Shown one piece after another: positions 16,388 to 22,143 of a stretch of 37,743 nt of DNA. The translations under genes and the position numbers were made by a program. The notes beneath the pieces are model-generated. The model made no database searches and had not been told where the DNA came from. It saw only the letters and a list, made by a program, of their open reading frames with translations. Origin of the DNA: Hyphomicrobiales bacterium (GTDB taxonomy: Bacteria > Pseudomonadota > Alphaproteobacteria > Rhizobiales > Beijerinckiaceae); assembly GCA_003241815.1 (NCBI GenBank), contig QBLV01000027.1, forward strand, positions 1-37,743, given 5' to 3'. How positions within the stretch are numbered: the stretch's first letter is position 1; each line of letters begins with the position of its first letter.

Positions 16388-17278
16388 ATGTCTTTATCCG
16401 CGATGATCAGGGCGATGCGGCCGCATCACTGGCTCAAGAACGGGCTGGTTTTCGTTCCGATCCTGCTCAACCACGACGTCTTCGACATTTCCGCGATCGG
16501 ACACGGCGTCGTCGCCTTCGTCGCCTTCAGCCTGATGGCATCGTCGATTTACCTCCTCAACGACATTATCGATGTCGAGGCCGACCGGCGCCATCCCACC
16601 AAATGCAAGCGCCCGCTGGCGGCAGGCGAGATCACCGAGCGGCAGGCTTATGCCGCCGTGCCCCTGCTGCTGGCGGCCGCCTTCGCACTGTCCTGGCTGC
16701 TGCCCCAGCCGCAGCTCTTCGTGCTGGCGCTCGGTGCCTATCTCGCCCTGGCGCTGGCCTATCTGTTCGTACTGAAGCGCAAGCTGCTGGTCGATGTGCT
16801 GGGCCTCGCCGCCCTGCACACGTTGCGCATCCTCGCCGGCAATGCTGCTGCCGCGATCCCGATCTCCTCCTGGCTGCTCGCCTTCTCGATGTTCCTGTTC
16901 CTGAGCCTGGCGCTGGTGAAGCGCTATGCCGAGTTGCGGATCACGCAGGACCAGTCGGGCCTCAAGAAGGCCGGACGCGGCTACCAGGCCGAGGATATCG
17001 AGGCGCTGTCGCAGCTCGGCATGGCCTCGGGCTGCACCTGCGCGCTGATCATGGCGCTTTATGTCGATAGCGCCGCGGTGAAGCAGCTCTACAGCCGCCC
17101 GGAGCTGATCTGGCTGGTCTGCCCGATCATCCTCTACCAGATGGCACGGATCTGGTTCCTGGCGCGGCGCGGCCATATGCCGGACGATCCGCTGGTCTTC
17201 ATGATCCGCGACTGGCGCAGCCAGGTCACGGGAGCGATTGTCGTTGTCATCATGATCGCCGCGACCGTGCTTCCGTGA
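16388..17278 (+). CDS. UbiA-family polyprenyl-phosphate phosphoribosyltransferase (DPPR synthase-like)
   Basis: A 296-residue membrane protein with about eight hydrophobic helices. The first UbiA aspartate motif is LLNDIIDVEADRRHPTKCKR (around residues 56-75), where the NDxxDxxxD spacing followed by HPTK and RPLAAG matches mycobacterial DPPR synthase (Rv3806c), rather than the quinone-pathway enzymes. DPPR synthase attaches 5-phosphoribose from PRPP to decaprenyl phosphate in the inner membrane. The N-terminal RPHHWLKNGLVFVP also fits this branch. The stop overlaps the start of the DprE1-like oxidase (GTGA), so the two products are made together, as in decaprenyl-phosphoryl-arabinose synthesis and related NoeC-type arabinosylation systems in rhizobia. 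The phosphatase and DprE2 partners are not adjacent. Confidence 0.87.
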   Translation: MSLSAMIRAMRPHHWLKNGLVFVPILLNHDVFDISAIGHGVVAFVAFSLMASSIYLLNDIIDVEADRRHPTKCKRPLAAGEITERQAYAAVPLLLAAAFALSWLLPQPQLFVLALGAYLALALAYLFVLKRKLLVDVLGLAALHTLRILAGNAAAAIPISSWLLAFSMFLFLSLALVKRYAELRITQDQSGLKKAGRGYQAEDIEALSQLGMASGCTCALIMALYVDSAAVKQLYSRPELIWLVCPIILYQMARIWFLARRGHMPDDPLVFMIRDWRSQVTGAIVVVIMIAATVLP

Positions 17279-18588
17279 GCGGGTTCCAAAGCGTCATACG
17301 CTCCTGGGGCGGTTTGAACGCTCGGGGCAGCGACCTCGTGGCGCCGCACGCCTGGATCGCGGCGCCTGCGCCGCAGCAGGGGCTGGTCCTCGCCCATGGC
17401 AATGGGCGCTCCTATGGCGATTCCTGCCTGAACGATGGCGGGCGCCTCATCCTTGCGCGCGGGCTCGACCGCGTACTGGCCTTCGACCGCAAGAGCGGGA
17501 TCGTCACCTGCGAGGCCGGCGTGCTGCTCGACGACCTCCTGAAGCTCGCCGTTCCCGCCGGCTGGTTTCCGCCGGTGACGCCCGGCACCTGCTTCGTCAC
17601 CATCGGCGGCGCACTCGCCAACGACGTCCACGGCAAGAACCATCACCGCGCCGGCACCTTCGGGCGCCATGTCCGCGCCTTCGAGCTGGTGCGCTCGGAC
17701 GGGCAGCGGCGGACCTGCGCGCCCGACATGAACCCTGCGCTCTTTGCCGCTACGATCGGCGGAATGGGCCTGACCGGCCTGATCACGCAGGTGACGCTGC
17801 AGCTCATGGCGGTGGATTCGGCCGAAATGAGCCAGGAGGTCGTCCATTTCGACGGCCTCGACCGCTTCTTCGAAATCGCCGCGCAATCCGACTCGACCCA
17901 TGAGTATACCGTCGCCTGGATCGACGCGCTCGCGCGCGGCCCAGCCTTCGGGCGCGGCGTTTTCTTCCGCGCCAACCATGCGCCGGCCTCGCAGCGGCCG
18001 CCGAGCCGGCCGCGTCAAAGCCTGCCCTTCCCGGTCAGGCCGCCGGTGCCGCTGATCAACGGCCTGACGCTGCGCGCCTTCAACCTGCTCTATCGCTCCA
18101 TGCAGCCACGCTCGTCACAGCCGCGACTGATCTCCTATCGCCCGTTCTTCTATCCGCTCGACCGGGTCCGCGACTGGAACCGGGCCTATGGGCCGAAAGG
18201 CCTGCGCCAGTTCCAATGCGCGATCCCGATGGCGCACGCCCGAGATTGCGTGGATGAGATGCTGCGGCGAACCCAGGCTGCCGGCGAGGCCTCATTCCTG
18301 ACCGTGCTCAAGCTTTTCGGCGATGTGCCCTCGCCGGGGATGATGTCCTTTCCCGTCGCCGGAGCGACGCTTACGCTGGACTTCCCCTATCGCGGCACCC
18401 GCACGGACCGACTGCTCGACGAGCTCGATCGCATCACCATCACGGCAGGGGGCCGCGTGAACCCCTACAAGGACGCCCGCATGTCGCCGGCGACCTTCGA
18501 GGCGTCTTTCCCTCGCTGGCGCGATTTCGCGGGGCATATCGATCCGGGATTTTCGTCCAGCTTCTGGCGCCGGGTGACGGCCAGCTGA
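17275..18588 (+). CDS. FAD-dependent oxidoreductase, DprE1-like (decaprenylphosphoryl-ribose 2-oxidase type)
   Basis: A 437-residue VAO-type flavoprotein starting at GTG 17275, overlapping the UbiA-like gene by four bases. The FAD-binding segment HGNGRSYGDSCLNDGG and the block PGTCFVTIGGALANDVHGKN (residues about 103-122, followed by HHRAGTFG) are close to DprE1, which oxidises the 2'-hydroxyl of polyprenyl-phosphoryl-ribose as the first half of its epimerisation to arabinose. The Lys of the catalytic YxxKDxR region is present (YKDAR, Lys399). By eye alignment the residue equivalent to Cys387 of mycobacterial DprE1 is Thr366 (GATLTLDFPY). No DprE2-type classical SDR lies next to it. Confidence 0.87.
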   Translation: MSGFQSVIRSWGGLNARGSDLVAPHAWIAAPAPQQGLVLAHGNGRSYGDSCLNDGGRLILARGLDRVLAFDRKSGIVTCEAGVLLDDLLKLAVPAGWFPPVTPGTCFVTIGGALANDVHGKNHHRAGTFGRHVRAFELVRSDGQRRTCAPDMNPALFAATIGGMGLTGLITQVTLQLMAVDSAEMSQEVVHFDGLDRFFEIAAQSDSTHEYTVAWIDALARGPAFGRGVFFRANHAPASQRPPSRPRQSLPFPVRPPVPLINGLTLRAFNLLYRSMQPRSSQPRLISYRPFFYPLDRVRDWNRAYGPKGLRQFQCAIPMAHARDCVDEMLRRTQAAGEASFLTVLKLFGDVPSPGMMSFPVAGATLTLDFPYRGTRTDRLLDELDRITITAGGRVNPYKDARMSPATFEASFPRWRDFAGHIDPGFSSSFWRRVTAS

Positions 18589-18713
18589 CAAGGCCGGCCG
18601 TGCTCGCCGCGAAAAAATCTGCAATCGCCTTGAACCCTTTCGCCGGTCGCCGCGACCAACGGTCATGGAGGGCGAATGGTTCGCTCCCGACGACATTCTG
18701 GGAGATCAAGACG

Positions 18714-19004
18714 ATGACCCGCTTCAAGAAGATCGCGACCGCCACCCTTGCCGCTCTCACGCTCGCCACCACGTTGGCTGCCACCTCGGCCGAAGCACGT
18801 CCGCGCTACTGGGGCCATCGCGGCTACGGCGTCGGAGCCGGCATCGTCGGTGCCCTCGCGGTCGGCGGGCTCCTCGCGGCGGCCTCCCGCCCCGCCTATG
18901 GCGGATACTATGCCTACGGCCCGGTTCGCCGCTGCGACATGGTTGAGCGCATCAACCGATATGGTGAGGTCGTCGGCTACCGCCGCGTCTGCGGCTACTA
19001 CTGA
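18714..19004 (+). CDS. small exported Gly/Tyr-rich protein, unknown function
   Basis: A 96-residue protein with a clear signal peptide: MTRFKKIATATLAALTLATT, then LAATSAEA cleavage at about residue 28. The mature part begins RPRYWGHRGYGVGAGIVG, continues through a Gly/Ala segment and ends in a Tyr- and Cys-containing tail (RRCDMVERINRYGEVVGYRR, then VCGYY) with two Cys that could form a disulfide. Small proteins of this design are common in Hyphomicrobiales and are uncharacterised. GGGAGA lies 12 bases before the ATG. It sits alone between the DprE1-like gene and the convergent aminotransferase gene. Confidence 0.75.
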   Translation: MTRFKKIATATLAALTLATTLAATSAEARPRYWGHRGYGVGAGIVGALAVGGLLAAASRPAYGGYYAYGPVRRCDMVERINRYGEVVGYRRVCGYY

Positions 19005-19086
19005 GAACACGGGGTACAGGCGGCCCGGGGCCAGGAACCCGCAGGGCCGCCGCCCAACACCGCCGGATTTTCGCAGACCCTTGAAG

Positions 19087-19117
19087 CGGCTCCCCGATCC
19101 TCCCGGGGGGCCGTTTC
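19087..19117 (+). terminator. possible terminator of the small exported protein gene
   Basis: The GC-rich imperfect hairpin cggctccccg...cggggggccg is followed by tttcctttgg. It lies about 80 bases beyond the stop at 19004. The stem has a mismatch. Confidence 0.4.
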
Positions 19118-19137
19118 CTTTGGCCAAAGCGCACGAA

Positions 19138-19161
19138 AAAGGGCCGGCGAACCGGCCCTTT
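19138..19161. terminator. bidirectional rho-independent terminator
   Basis: The perfect 10-bp stem aaagggccgg/ccggcccttt with tetraloop cgaa is flanked by A-run and T-run, so it can work in both directions. It separates the rightward small-protein gene from the leftward transporter/SDR/aminotransferase operon that ends at 19186. Confidence 0.85.
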
Positions 19162-19185
19162 AAACAGGCGTCCGAGGGGAGTGCC

Positions 19186-20637
19186 TCAGCCCTTCGACAC
19201 CGCGACCTTGCGCAGGTAATCCGTCACGATGCGGGTGATGCCGCGTCCGAGCAGATCGTCCAGCGCGTTGATGAAGGTGTCGCAATCCTCCCGCGTCGCG
19301 ATCAGCGGCGGCTCGAGGCGGATGACGTTGCGGTTATACTCAGTGAAAGCGACGAGCACGTCGTAATCCTTGAGAAGCAGCGCGCCGATGAAGCCGCAGA
19401 GCGAGCCCTTGAGCTTGTCGTCGAGCAGCGCGACCATGTGCTTGAGCCCGAAGGGCATGGTCTCGCTGATGTCCTGGAACTCGACGCCGATCATCAGGCC
19501 GCGCCCACGGATCTCCTTCAGCAGACTCGGATATTTGACGCGCAGCTCGTTGAGGCGGCCGATCAGGTAGTCGCCCTGGCGCTGGGCGTTGCCCATGAGG
19601 TCTTCCTCATAGAGCACGTTCAGCCCCTCGATCGCCGAGATGCAGGCCTCGCCCATGCCACCGAAGGTCGCCTGGGCATGAATCAGCGCGGTCTTGGGCT
19701 TGCCATAGGCCTTCATGTAGAGCTCGCGCCGGGCGATCATCGCGCCCATCGCGGCCTTGGAGCCACCGAGCGCCTTGGCGAGCGCGGTCACGTCCGGCAC
19801 CACACCGTCGCGCTCGAAGGCGAAGAACTGGCCGGTGCGGCCGAGCCCGCATTGCACCTCGTCGGCGACCCAGAGCACACCATGCTTGTCGCAGAGCGCG
19901 CGCAATTCGCGCCAGAAGCCCAGCGGGGCCTCGACGATGCCGCCGCCGCCCTGAATCGTCTCCATCACCACGATGCCAATCGCGGGATCACTTTCCAGCG
20001 CCAGGCGAACCGCCTCGATGTCGCCGAACGGCACCTTGACCCGGTTCTCGACCAGCTTGAACTGCGACTGGTAAAGCGTGGAATCCGTGACCGAGAGCAC
20101 GCCTTTGGTCTTGCCGTGGAAGGAGTTCGCGGCGTGCAGGATCTTGGACTTGGCCGGGCCCTGCGCCTGCTCGGCGACCTTCAGCGCCGCTTCCATCGCC
20201 TCCGAGCCGGTCGAGCCGAGGAAAACCATGTCGAGATCGCCCGGCGAGATCGCGGCGAGATTGGCGGCGAGTGCCGAGGCATATTGCGACATGAACGCCA
20301 TGCAGATCTCATGGCGGTTCTCGTCCTGGAAGCGCTTCCGCGCCGCAACGATGCGCGGATGGTTGTGGCCGAAGGCGACCGAGCAGAAACCCCCGAAGAA
20401 ATCGAGAATCTTGCGGCCGTCCTTGGTGATGTAGTGCATGCCCTCGGCTCGATCGACGAGGATCTTGTCGAAGCCGAGCAGTTTCAGGAAATGCACCTGG
20501 CCGGGATTGATGTGGCTGGTGAACAGCTCTTTCACCGTCTGCACGTCGAGGTTCTTGGCATCCTCGACGCTGTAGAGCTTCGGGCGCGTCGGCGCCGTCA
20601 TGGCGGCATCTTCGGTCTTGAAAGCGGGCATGCTCAT
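19186..20637 (-). CDS. class III PLP-dependent aminotransferase
   Basis: A 483-residue fold-type I aminotransferase of the ornithine/acetylornithine class. Diagnostic features: cofactor-binding GSTGSEAMEAALKVA (about 141-155), NSFHGKTKGVLS (about 171-182), the Asp/Glu of WVADEVQCGLGRTGQFFAF (Asp259) and the Schiff-base Lys288 in TALAKALGGSK. The approximately 60-residue N-terminal extension (LYSVEDAKNLDVQTVKELFT and onward) is reminiscent of HpnO-type enzymes, which aminate a side-chain aldehyde on hopanoids, rather than of biosynthetic ArgD. Its ATG overlaps the stop of the SDR gene (ATGA), and the operon starts with an ArnE-like transporter. A role in making an amino sugar or lipid-linked amino group is therefore inferred; a catabolic omega-amino acid aminotransferase is the alternative. 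Confidence 0.88.
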   Translation of the reverse strand: MSMPAFKTEDAAMTAPTRPKLYSVEDAKNLDVQTVKELFTSHINPGQVHFLKLLGFDKILVDRAEGMHYITKDGRKILDFFGGFCSVAFGHNHPRIVAARKRFQDENRHEICMAFMSQYASALAANLAAISPGDLDMVFLGSTGSEAMEAALKVAEQAQGPAKSKILHAANSFHGKTKGVLSVTDSTLYQSQFKLVENRVKVPFGDIEAVRLALESDPAIGIVVMETIQGGGGIVEAPLGFWRELRALCDKHGVLWVADEVQCGLGRTGQFFAFERDGVVPDVTALAKALGGSKAAMGAMIARRELYMKAYGKPKTALIHAQATFGGMGEACISAIEGLNVLYEEDLMGNAQRQGDYLIGRLNELRVKYPSLLKEIRGRGLMIGVEFQDISETMPFGLKHMVALLDDKLKGSLCGFIGALLLKDYDVLVAFTEYNRNVIRLEPPLIATREDCDTFINALDDLLGRGITRIVTDYLRKVAVSKG

Positions 20638-21638
20638 GCGGCGACACTCCTCGGGGCTTCGTTGGAGGGCGCTTTGGCCCGGCGGTATTCGGTGTAGGCG
20701 GCGAGCAGCATGTCCTCGTCGCGGTGCATCGGCTTCCAGCCGAGCTCACGCTTGGCCTTGGAGGTGTCGAGGATGCAGATCTCGTCGGCGATCATGTACT
20801 GCTCGGGGTCCATGATCGGCATGTTGACCGCATCGAGCGCGTTCAGCGTCAGCTTGACCAGCGAAGCCGGCGTCGGCAGCAGGATCGACTTCGAACCGGC
20901 ATGCTTGATCAGATCGCCGAGCAGTTTCTTCACCGGCGGCGGATCATCCGAACCGAGGTTGTAGGCGCTGTTCGGAAAACCCGCCTTCCAGGCCGCGATG
21001 CAGGCGCTGGCACAGTCGAACACCGAGATGAACTGATAGGGGTTCTTGCCCGAGCCGATCATCGGGACCGGCAGGTTCAGGTCGATCAGCTTGAACAGCT
21101 TGACCAGGATGCCGAGACGCCCGGGCCCGATGATCAGGCGCGGGCGGAAGATCGGGATCTGGAAGCCCTGGTCGCGATAGGTCTGCGCCAGTGTCTCGGT
21201 GGCGAGCTTGCTCTCGCCATATTCGCCGAGCGGCCGGGCGGGATGGTCCTCGTCCTGCGGCACCGTCACCGAATGGCCGTAGATCATGTCGGTGGTGAAG
21301 TGGACGAGCTTGTTGGCGCCCGCCTTCTCCATCCAGCTCAGGATGTTCTGCGTGCCGTGATAATTCACCGGCCAGAAGAAGTCGTGACGTTCCGCCCGCG
21401 TCACGATCGGCGACAACATCTTGGCCGAGAGGTTGTAGACGAGGTCGTCCTTGTCGAGCGGGATCGTGGCGACGCTTGCCGCTTCCGTCACGTCGATCTT
21501 GTGGAACGGCACCTTGGCATAATGGGCATGGCCGCTCTTGACGATATCGGCGACGAGCACCTCCTCGCCCATCGCTGAGAGGTCAGCCGCCAGATGCGAG
21601 CCGACAAAGCCGTCACCGCCGATGATGATGTGTTTCAC
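20634..21638 (-). CDS. NAD-dependent epimerase/dehydratase (extended SDR)
   Basis: A 334-residue extended short-chain dehydrogenase acting on sugar-type substrates. The N-terminal nucleotide-binding motif is IIIGGDGFVGSHLA, and the active site is TTDMIYGHS with the YGESK pair (Tyr140, Lys144). The block RPRLIIGPGRLGILVKLFKL is the substrate-domain segment usual in this family. The start is GTG 21638, with GGAGAG five bases upstream; the in-frame extension beyond it is Arg/Pro/Ala-rich and is not conserved. It is translationally coupled to the aminotransferase and lies 14 bases after a 37-codon mini-gene. A keto- or aldehyde-sugar from this enzyme could feed the aminotransferase. Confidence 0.88.
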   Translation of the reverse strand: MKHIIIGGDGFVGSHLAADLSAMGEEVLVADIVKSGHAHYAKVPFHKIDVTEAASVATIPLDKDDLVYNLSAKMLSPIVTRAERHDFFWPVNYHGTQNILSWMEKAGANKLVHFTTDMIYGHSVTVPQDEDHPARPLGEYGESKLATETLAQTYRDQGFQIPIFRPRLIIGPGRLGILVKLFKLIDLNLPVPMIGSGKNPYQFISVFDCASACIAAWKAGFPNSAYNLGSDDPPPVKKLLGDLIKHAGSKSILLPTPASLVKLTLNALDAVNMPIMDPEQYMIADEICILDTSKAKRELGWKPMHRDEDMLLAAYTEYRRAKAPSNEAPRSVAA

Positions 21639-21652
21639 GCGATCTCTCCGGC

Positions 21653-21766
21653 TCAGCGGGGTCGGTGCGGGCGCTGATCGCGCACCGGCACCGGGATGGG
21701 CACGAGCTCGGGCTTCGGCTCGAGCAGGGCGCCGAGGCGCAGGAACAGGCGAACGATCCAATCCAT
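21653..21766 (-). CDS. 37-residue mini-protein in the transporter/SDR/aminotransferase operon
   Basis: A short frame fits exactly in the gap between the ArnE-like gene (stop 21775) and the SDR gene (start 21638). It has an ATG with GAGGGA a few bases upstream. The peptide begins MDWIVRLFLRLGALLEP, an amphipathic helix with Trp/Phe/Leu on one face and Arg on the other. It ends in a Pro/Arg-rich tail (PVPVRDQRPHRPR) interrupted by PKPELVPIP. I do not recognise a family. Its placement and ribosome-binding site support translation. It could be a membrane-surface partner of the small transporter, or a leader that couples translation of the SDR gene. Confidence 0.5.
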   Translation of the reverse strand: MDWIVRLFLRLGALLEPKPELVPIPVPVRDQRPHRPR

Positions 21767-21774
21767 GATGTCCC

Positions 21775-22143
21775 TCAGCTTTGTGCGATGAAAATGGTGC
21801 CGAGCACGATGAAGCCGATGCCCGCGATCCGGGCTGCGCTCATGTCCTCGTTGAAGACGAAATAGGCGTAGGCCGCGACCACGACATAGGCGAGGCTCAG
21901 AAACGGGTAGGCGTAGGAGATCTGGACCTTCGACAACACGACCAGATGCGAGGCCATGCTGACGACGAAGGTGCACAGACCTGCGAAGACGAAGGGGTTG
22001 AAGACAATGCGGAAGATGGTCGAAATCACGCCGTCGCCAGCGACGTCGAGCGTGCCCACGCCGGTCATGCCGCGCTTCAGCATGAGCTGGGCCGCCGCAT
22101 TGGTCAGCACCGTGAACAGGATCAGGGGAATATAGGCATTCAT
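21775..22143 (-). CDS. small four-helix transporter, ArnE/EmrE-like (DMT superfamily)
   Basis: A 122-residue protein with four predicted membrane helices: IPLILFTVLTNAAAQLMLKR, VFAGLCTFVVSMASHLVVL, YAYPFLSLAYVVVAAYAYFV and IAGIGFIVLGTIFIAQ. The LTNAAAQLMLKRG start and the SYAYPFLSLAYVVVA block are closer to ArnE/ArnF, which move 4-amino-4-deoxy-arabinose-phosphoundecaprenol across the inner membrane, than to multidrug EmrE, whose Glu14 is not seen here. It is the first gene of an operon with a mini-protein, SDR and aminotransferase, which supports transport of a lipid-linked amino sugar. ATG 22143 is preceded by GGAAGAG about ten bases upstream; longer in-frame starts up to 22203 are possible. 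Confidence 0.75.
   Translation of the reverse strand: MNAYIPLILFTVLTNAAAQLMLKRGMTGVGTLDVAGDGVISTIFRIVFNPFVFAGLCTFVVSMASHLVVLSKVQISYAYPFLSLAYVVVAAYAYFVFNEDMSAARIAGIGFIVLGTIFIAQS

Follow-up and report, generated by a model that had tools for sequence, protein, structure and literature searches.

A candidate five-enzyme module for a lipid-linked aminopentofuranose in the Hyphomicrobiales

What does an oxidase of the DprE1 kind do in a bacterium in which no DprE2 is found to reduce its product? The question is raised by a stretch of 37,743 nucleotides (contig QBLV01000027.1 of assembly GCA_003241815.1, a Hyphomicrobiales bacterium of the Beijerinckiaceae), which was analyzed at its full length and is called the window here. 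On its forward strand, a gene for a UbiA-family phosphoribosyltransferase is joined to one for a DprE1-like oxidase. Facing this pair on the reverse strand are genes for a small ArnF/ArnE-like membrane protein (Eam), a 37-aa open reading frame (the mini-ORF), an extended short-chain dehydrogenase/reductase (SDR) and a class III aminotransferase (AT). We propose, with a probability of roughly one half, that UbiA, DprE1, Eam, SDR and AT form a module that would make and export a polyprenyl phosphate-linked aminopentofuranose, the predicted ketone product of DprE1 being aminated and not reduced.

Results

Genes of the window and their conserved residues

A first-pass annotation of the window had described a coupled UbiA-DprE1 pair facing an operon of Eam, the mini-ORF, SDR and AT (Table 1), and this layout is borne out. 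The GTG start of DprE1 at 17275 lies inside the UbiA stop codon, giving a 4-nt GTGA overlap, the SDR runs from a probable GTG start at 21638 to a stop at 20634, and the AT start overlaps the SDR stop as ATGA. UbiA matches PF01040 (80 bits), and its closest model is NF006088 (386 bits against a cut-off of 351, with the N-terminal 191 positions of the model unmatched). DPPR (decaprenylphosphoryl-phosphoribose) synthase comes next, with models scoring 143-167 bits, under their cut-offs of 207-474, and a match to the solved DPPR synthase 8j8j at E 3e-35. DprE1 scores 360 bits with NF053785, short of the curated cut-off of 500, also matches PF01565, and finds solved DprE1 at E 3e-72. For Eam, the scores are 57 bits with the ArnF model NF002816 (cut-off 99), 36 bits with the ArnE model (cut-off 92) and 22.9 with Pfam EamA (cut-off 28.2). 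The SDR (PF01370, 127 bits) is of the GalE/UXS kind, and its solved relatives are for the most part epimerases, decarboxylases and dehydratases, not simple reductases. AT matches PF00202 with 275 bits, and its nearest solved structures are PigE and putrescine aminotransferase.

Residues were counted over aligned module rows, with the SDR numbered from a query start at 21647. DprE1 K399 and Q314 are present in 76/76 rows and H132 in 62/76. Y143 and K147 of the SDR (YxxxK) are found in 85/85 rows and its glycine motif, which differs in its first residue (GGxGxxG), in 83/85 with 2 gaps; AT K288 is present in 83/83. We take these conserved residues of DprE1, SDR and AT to be catalytic. In UbiA, N58, D59, D62, D66, H69 and K72 are invariant in 79/79 rows, P70 is variable, R179 is present in 79/79 and E182 in 77/79. 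The spacing of the UbiA motifs matches that of ORF15 of Citrobacter, and the motif residues are treated as catalytic in the relevant part of PMC11127046.

Table 1. Features of the window, and membrane families encoded near AT in other loci
Feature	Position	Strand	Basis
UbiA-family polyprenyl-phosphate phosphoribosyltransferase, DPPR-synthase-like (predicted), without HAD domain	16388-17278	+	PF01040, NF006088, solved DPPR synthase 8j8j, motifs
DprE1-like FAD oxidase, predicted C2 oxidation of polyprenyl-P-ribose	17275-18588	+	PF01565, NF053785, solved DprE1
Class III pyridoxal phosphate (PLP) aminotransferase (AT), predicted to aminate the DprE1 ketone	19186-20637	-	PF00202; K288; own clade
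Extended SDR, GalE-like, NAD-type, candidate sugar epimerase	20634-21638	-	PF01370; Y143, K147
Eam, small ArnF/ArnE-like membrane protein, candidate flippase of the lipid-linked sugar	21775-22143	-	NF002816; 80/80 SDR loci
Mini-ORF, 37 aa, restricted to most of the window's genus, outside the core	21653-21766	-	Conservation in same-genus loci
Small secreted-type ORF between the two units	18714-19004		Glycine- and tyrosine-rich
Two membrane families near AT, like glycosyltransferases of the C fold (GT-C; predicted)	L091:12524-13714 and L104:12526-14268		

Co-inheritance of the two units

Across 121 genomes (the window's own and 120 relatives), the SDR occurs in 58, AT in 57 (a count that excludes four genomes whose only matches are 33-35% identical), DprE1 in 66 and UbiA in 71. 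Within the genus, SDR, AT and DprE1 are all present in 56 of 67 genomes, and UbiA accompanies them in 55 of those 56. The exception (G064) probably reflects an assembly gap, since even its DprE1 match starts only at residue 45. Neither SDR nor AT is found in the remaining 11 genomes of the genus; ten of these have no DprE1 either, and in the eleventh (G044) a divergent DprE1 lies next to a DprE2. The two units lie ~18-50 kb apart in five same-genus genomes (G009, G028, G064, G065 and G066) and on different contigs of draft assemblies in three (G001, G032 and G059), and in all of these both units are kept.

The set had been put forward as six genes. Five of them are conserved together. The mini-ORF, which possibly encodes a small membrane-associated protein, was found in 21/21 same-genus loci tested, at 62-100% identity, and in none of the five other loci tested in which Eam and SDR lie close, two of which belong to divergent members of the genus. 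Because the mini-ORF falls outside the core, the core shrinks from six genes to five.

When one genome of each species was scanned, 177 SDR relatives emerged; the 80 best, with as much as 10 kb of flanking sequence on either side, make up the wider survey. These 80 loci span Rhizobium, Ensifer, Mesorhizobium, Hoeflea, Aureimonas, Shinella, Phyllobacterium, Bradyrhizobium and others. Each of the 80 encodes AT and Eam, 74 encode UbiA, 70 DprE1 and 69 all five proteins; L062 has fragmentary matches for UbiA and DprE1. In 58/80 loci the called genes run UbiA-DprE1-Eam-SDR-AT on one strand, and 4-nt overlaps join Eam to SDR in 65, UbiA to DprE1 in 34 and SDR to AT in 11. The two facing units of the first-pass annotation are what the window has, but outside its genus the genes usually form a single operon. 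Beyond the five core genes, no gene family occurs in more than 35 of 98 clustered sequence sets.

DprE1 follows AT even where the two are not linked. It is present in 57/57 AT-positive relatives, including genomes in which it lies away from AT, and in all 80 genomes of the wider survey, 70 times within the locus and 10 times elsewhere. A genome-wide search for DprE1 was positive in 24/24 genomes tested, including all ten that lack it at the locus. Of the ten off-locus copies, five (all in Hoeflea-type genomes) are paired with UbiA, three stand alone and two lie beside DprE2. In a search of 384 other genomes of the class, with up to four best candidates scored per genome, AT gave one match at E 1e-120, in a genome of another order (G375). 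The locus there has the order Eam-SDR-UbiA-DprE1-AT, and its AT, SDR and Eam are 64-70% identical to those of the window, its UbiA 30% and its DprE1 44%. That the units might occur independently of each other had been named as a possible objection; the 57 relatives, the 80 named loci and G375 speak against it. The recurrence of the gene set across families, and once in another order, is more than a chance neighborhood, which is ruled out by co-occurrence in the genus, the 80 loci, the retention of off-locus DprE1 and G375.

A distinct clade of aminotransferases

HpnO, the hopanoid aminotransferase, resembles the module AT in being of class III and 33-35% identical to it, but the two belong to separate clades. 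In the tree, 37 module ATs fall on one side of a branch supported at 100/99; five HpnO-type ATs stand apart at 100/100, and so do the five other class III ATs of the window's genome. The HpnO label was given to four ATs beside HpnH- or HpnN-like genes, the neighbors being judged by eye, and to that of L164, which has no such neighbors, from similarity; it then grouped with the other HpnO-type ATs. Genome G110 carries both a module AT and an HpnO-type AT. Clustering with HpnO or with catabolic enzymes had been raised earlier as a possible outcome. In the tree, AT groups neither with HpnO nor with the genome's remaining class III ATs, and this together with the two kinds in G110 rules out that AT is HpnO or a catabolic enzyme.

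Exclusion of DprE2

The search model for DprE2 was NF005489; among the 121 genomes its strong matches score 247 bits or more and the next best 117. The best candidates of each genome (up to 20, 43 or 61) were scored. A DprE2 homolog elsewhere in the window's genome, which the first-pass annotation had suggested looking for, gave no match at E 1e-30 among the best 20 of 63 candidates in a genome that is 90.3% complete. There is likewise no strong match in any of the 57 AT-positive relatives, with up to 20 best candidates scored per genome. Strong matches occur in nine of the 121 genomes (G044, G069, G070, G072, G082, G091, G107, G109 and G114), and these are exactly the genomes that have DprE1 and no AT, DprE2 being adjacent to DprE1 in seven of the nine. 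UbiA-DprE1 is also found without AT, but then with DprE2 (9/9 DprE1-positive relatives without AT). The exclusion between DprE2 and AT has a Fisher p of 2.7e-11, with relatedness ignored.

DprE2 was found in 5/80 of the named genomes (4/50 and 1/30). In three of the five (Bradyrhizobium iriomotense, B. algeriense and Ensifer sesbaniae) a second DprE1 lies directly beside DprE2 and another accompanies AT; the second DprE1 of B. algeriense matches in two pieces. In E. sesbaniae (the genome of L070), the second DprE1 lies directly ahead of DprE2 and away from the AT module (L177), and this pair is perhaps the noeHO of a Sesbania nodulator.

DprE1 lineages and the reverse case

A first DprE1 tree omits five short pieces from L116 and L062. 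Of 97 rows in the DprE1 tree, 82 from AT-positive genomes plus G114 fall in one clade (starred), which excludes the 11 rows from DprE2 genomes. The DprE1s of Mangrovicella, Aureimonas leprariae and a Hyphomicrobiales metagenome-assembled genome (MAG), all with AT and without DprE2, group with two DprE2-associated ones. The DprE1 of G375, in which NF005489 found no DprE2 among the best candidates scored, also groups with DprE2-associated DprE1s. Since G375 and three of the 80 genomes carry a DprE1 of another lineage, the Eam-SDR-AT set has been joined to different DprE1 lineages.

A few fixed differences, the following among them, separate module DprE1 from DprE2-associated DprE1 (25 versus 11 rows). 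In the former, N396 and Y398 flank P397 just ahead of K399 where the latter has Y and A, and T367 stands in place of A or S. Of the 76 module rows, 70 have Thr and 6 have Ala at the T367 position, which aligns with the cysteine of mycobacterial DprE1 to which benzothiazinones bind. At all three positions the four other-lineage DprE1s that occur with AT carry the DprE2-type residues; N396, Y398 and T367 are therefore not required for pairing with AT.

Genome G114 (L037:5534-10904 and L050) encodes a HAD-UbiA fusion, DprE1, Eam and SDR without AT, and has DprE2 on another contig. A membrane gene meets the end of its SDR. Gene calls in G114 stretches, and with them the context of its DprE2, are unreliable, since the codon scores came from training on other loci. 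G114 is the reverse case: the remainder of the operon is intact, and DprE2 could stand in for AT.

Phosphatase and glycosyltransferase

The UbiA of the window (296 aa in a 305-aa open frame) consists of the UbiA domain only, without a HAD domain, and the UbiA proteins of the relatives checked (L091, L037 and L038) have an N-terminal HAD domain fused to them. Systems with a separate phosphatase exist, according to the text of PMC11127046 cited here. Two PMT_2 matches, one of them over the cut-off, lie elsewhere in the window's genome, unlinked to the module. Downstream of AT, at a distance of a few kb at most, other loci have genes for two membrane families without a Pfam match: one of ~580 aa (18 loci) and one of ~395 aa (15 loci), both present in L118. 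A model of the ~580-aa family (predicted local distance difference test, pLDDT, 84) has ArnT as its best match, at E 5.8e-5. The ~395-aa model (pLDDT 91) retrieves ALG12, PglB and AftB at a probability of 0.94-0.99 and E 0.06 or worse, a weak match that would make it a GT-C protein. In G110 the set lies among genes that by eye resemble exopolysaccharide genes, and a PMT_2 protein is encoded directly after DprE1.

Discussion

A proposed pathway

From the enzyme families, conserved motifs, operon, co-inheritance and exclusion of DprE2, all read from sequence, we infer the substrates, the order of steps, the aminated carbon, the product and the transferase that would act in the window's genome. 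UbiA would move phosphoribose from phosphoribosyl pyrophosphate (PRPP) onto polyprenyl phosphate, and a phosphatase, represented in other loci by the HAD domain fused to UbiA, would leave polyprenyl-P-ribose. DprE1 would oxidize C2 to a ketone, which AT would aminate where DprE2 would reduce it, giving a 2-amino-2-deoxy-pentofuranose. The SDR would probably alter the stereochemistry at a neighboring carbon, C3 if ORF13 of Citrobacter is the precedent. Eam would then flip the lipid-linked sugar to the periplasm, and a GT-C enzyme would transfer it to an envelope glycan. The amination step is proposed because DprE2 is excluded, because the pairing with DprE1 is repeated and because of the pattern in G114. 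Oxidation followed by amination in place of epimerization to arabinose, the idea from which the analysis set out, gains support from genomic data and fits the exclusion of DprE2.

In its full form the proposal is tentative: many Hyphomicrobiales may make a polyprenyl-P 2-amino-2-deoxy-pentofuranose on the lipid, by oxidation and transamination of polyprenyl-P-ribose, and ArnT-like delivery may turn it into a positively charged envelope sugar; a glycosyl donor of this kind does not appear in the papers searched. The G114 operon could then give the C2 and C3 epimer, lyxofuranose, if the SDR inverts C3. Lyxofuranose is given as unknown in solved carbohydrate structures in the pertinent part of PMC11127046.

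Several results weigh against amination of a dedicated DprE1 ketone. The main one is that Antarcticirhabdus (G122) and an Aurantimonadaceae MAG (G123), both with AT, have a single DprE1 that lies beside DprE2 and outside the AT set, which counts against a DprE1 dedicated to AT. The SDR excludes DprE2 nearly as well as AT does, and only G114 separates the two. The absence of DprE2 rests on the best candidates of each genome, a scope in which a weak DprE2 could escape notice, and some of the genomes are incomplete. Class III aminotransferases often act on aldehydes rather than on ring ketones. As to delivery, no linked GT-C gene was found in the window, and the ArnT match of the ~580-aa family has TM-scores of just 0.40-0.42.

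Other readings of the gene set

Could AT aminate another carbon? The product would still be a lipid-linked aminopentose if the SDR oxidized C3 or C5 and AT acted there, the role of DprE1 being separate or preparatory. SDR and AT are adjacent in 80/80 loci, and sugars are commonly aminated by an SDR paired with a PLP aminotransferase. The solved structures nearest to AT point the same way, since putrescine aminotransferase and PigE act on aldehydes, as does the divergence near its lysine of module-clade DprE1 from DprE2-partnered DprE1. This arrangement would, however, leave the 2-ketone of DprE1 without a reductase in AT-positive genomes that lack DprE2, and G114 keeps the SDR without AT; we consider it unlikely.

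The near equivalence of SDR and AT in excluding DprE2 also suits a scheme in which the SDR acts as a non-homologous DprE2 and, together with DprE1, makes a lipid-linked pentose such as arabinose, with AT aminating something else, for example the acceptor. SDR-positive genomes lack DprE2 almost as consistently as AT-positive ones. Yet G114 has both SDR and DprE2, few signs of a simple reductase come from the solved structures nearest to the SDR (chiefly epimerases, decarboxylases and dehydratases), and all 80 loci have AT next to the SDR, which makes this scheme quite unlikely. That the facing units are unrelated neighbors, with AT and SDR in hopanoid or catabolic metabolism, would fit the opposite strands of the window and the eight same-genus genomes with units apart or on separate contigs, but it is very improbable given the single operon elsewhere, the joint absence within the genus, the joint retention when unlinked and an AT clade distinct from HpnO and from the genome's other class III ATs.

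Relation to known systems

The Arn pathway, which places 4-amino-4-deoxy-arabinose on lipid A, shares with the proposed aminopentofuranose module a (here predicted) aminopentose on polyprenyl phosphate, a candidate ArnE/F-like transporter and, beside relatives of the module, a predicted ArnT-like GT-C protein. Arn builds its sugar on UDP, and ArnB belongs to another aminotransferase family, whereas the module sugar would start from PRPP and be modified on the lipid. In chemistry, the module can be likened to the aminoglycoside 6-prime dehydrogenase and its class III aminotransferase, a flavin oxidase and an AT that turn a hydroxyl into an amine; that pair does not act on a lipid-linked sugar, and the likeness drawn here is one of chemistry.

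The DprE1/DprE2 route to arabinose (mycobacterial decaprenylphosphoryl-arabinose, DPA, and rhizobial noeCHOP) has in common with the module the UbiA phosphoribosyltransferase and DprE1, but module genomes have AT, SDR and Eam where DprE2 was not found. In the parts of PMC2443382 and PMC5080398 consulted, noeCHOP of Azorhizobium and IRBG74 is the rhizobial arabinose route described, noeC, noeH and noeO providing the D-arabinose precursor for Nod factors.

The three-component pentofuranose systems, of which that of Citrobacter youngae O1/O2 (Kelly et al. 2024, PMC11127046) is the prototype, share with the module a polyprenyl-phosphoribose synthase (predicted here), a small ArnE-like transporter (a candidate here) and an extended SDR. 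As far as the cited text goes, the Citrobacter UbiA is HAD-fused, an arrangement shown there to make polyprenyl-P-ribose, the extended SDR ORF13 converts ribose to xylose on the lipid, and the system also has a GT-C transferase. The module adds DprE1 and a class III aminotransferase, and in the window UbiA lacks HAD and no GT-C gene is linked. The window SDR has the GalE-like nucleotide motif and YxxxK of an ORF13-type epimerase, to which it is likened by these motifs. The genomic case for a variant of the three-component systems is strong, and the chemistry of that variant would include amination. PMC11127046 describes side chains of pentofuranose in which the sugar is ribose, xylose or arabinose, and its main text contains neither "aminotransferase" nor "rhizobi", and a full-text literature search, with most subscription papers outside its coverage, returned no description of this gene set. 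If the proposal is right, amination joins ribose, xylose and arabinose among the bacterial variations of lipid-linked pentofuranose, and the occurrence of DprE1 without DprE2 in many rhizobia and their relatives is explained. It would also predict an aminopentofuranose in the surface glycans of these bacteria, which can be searched for directly, and thus a charged envelope sugar made in plant-associated bacteria by a route distinct from Arn.

Two minor observations remain. Seven relatives (G084, G085, G093, G099, G106, G115 and G116) have a UbiA match of this kind and no DprE1 at E 1e-20, and these are possible plain ribofuranose systems. The longer frame of the small ORF between the two units of the window found no match when searched against family models, and an 85% identical copy of the ORF adjoins DprE1 in G028 (L136).

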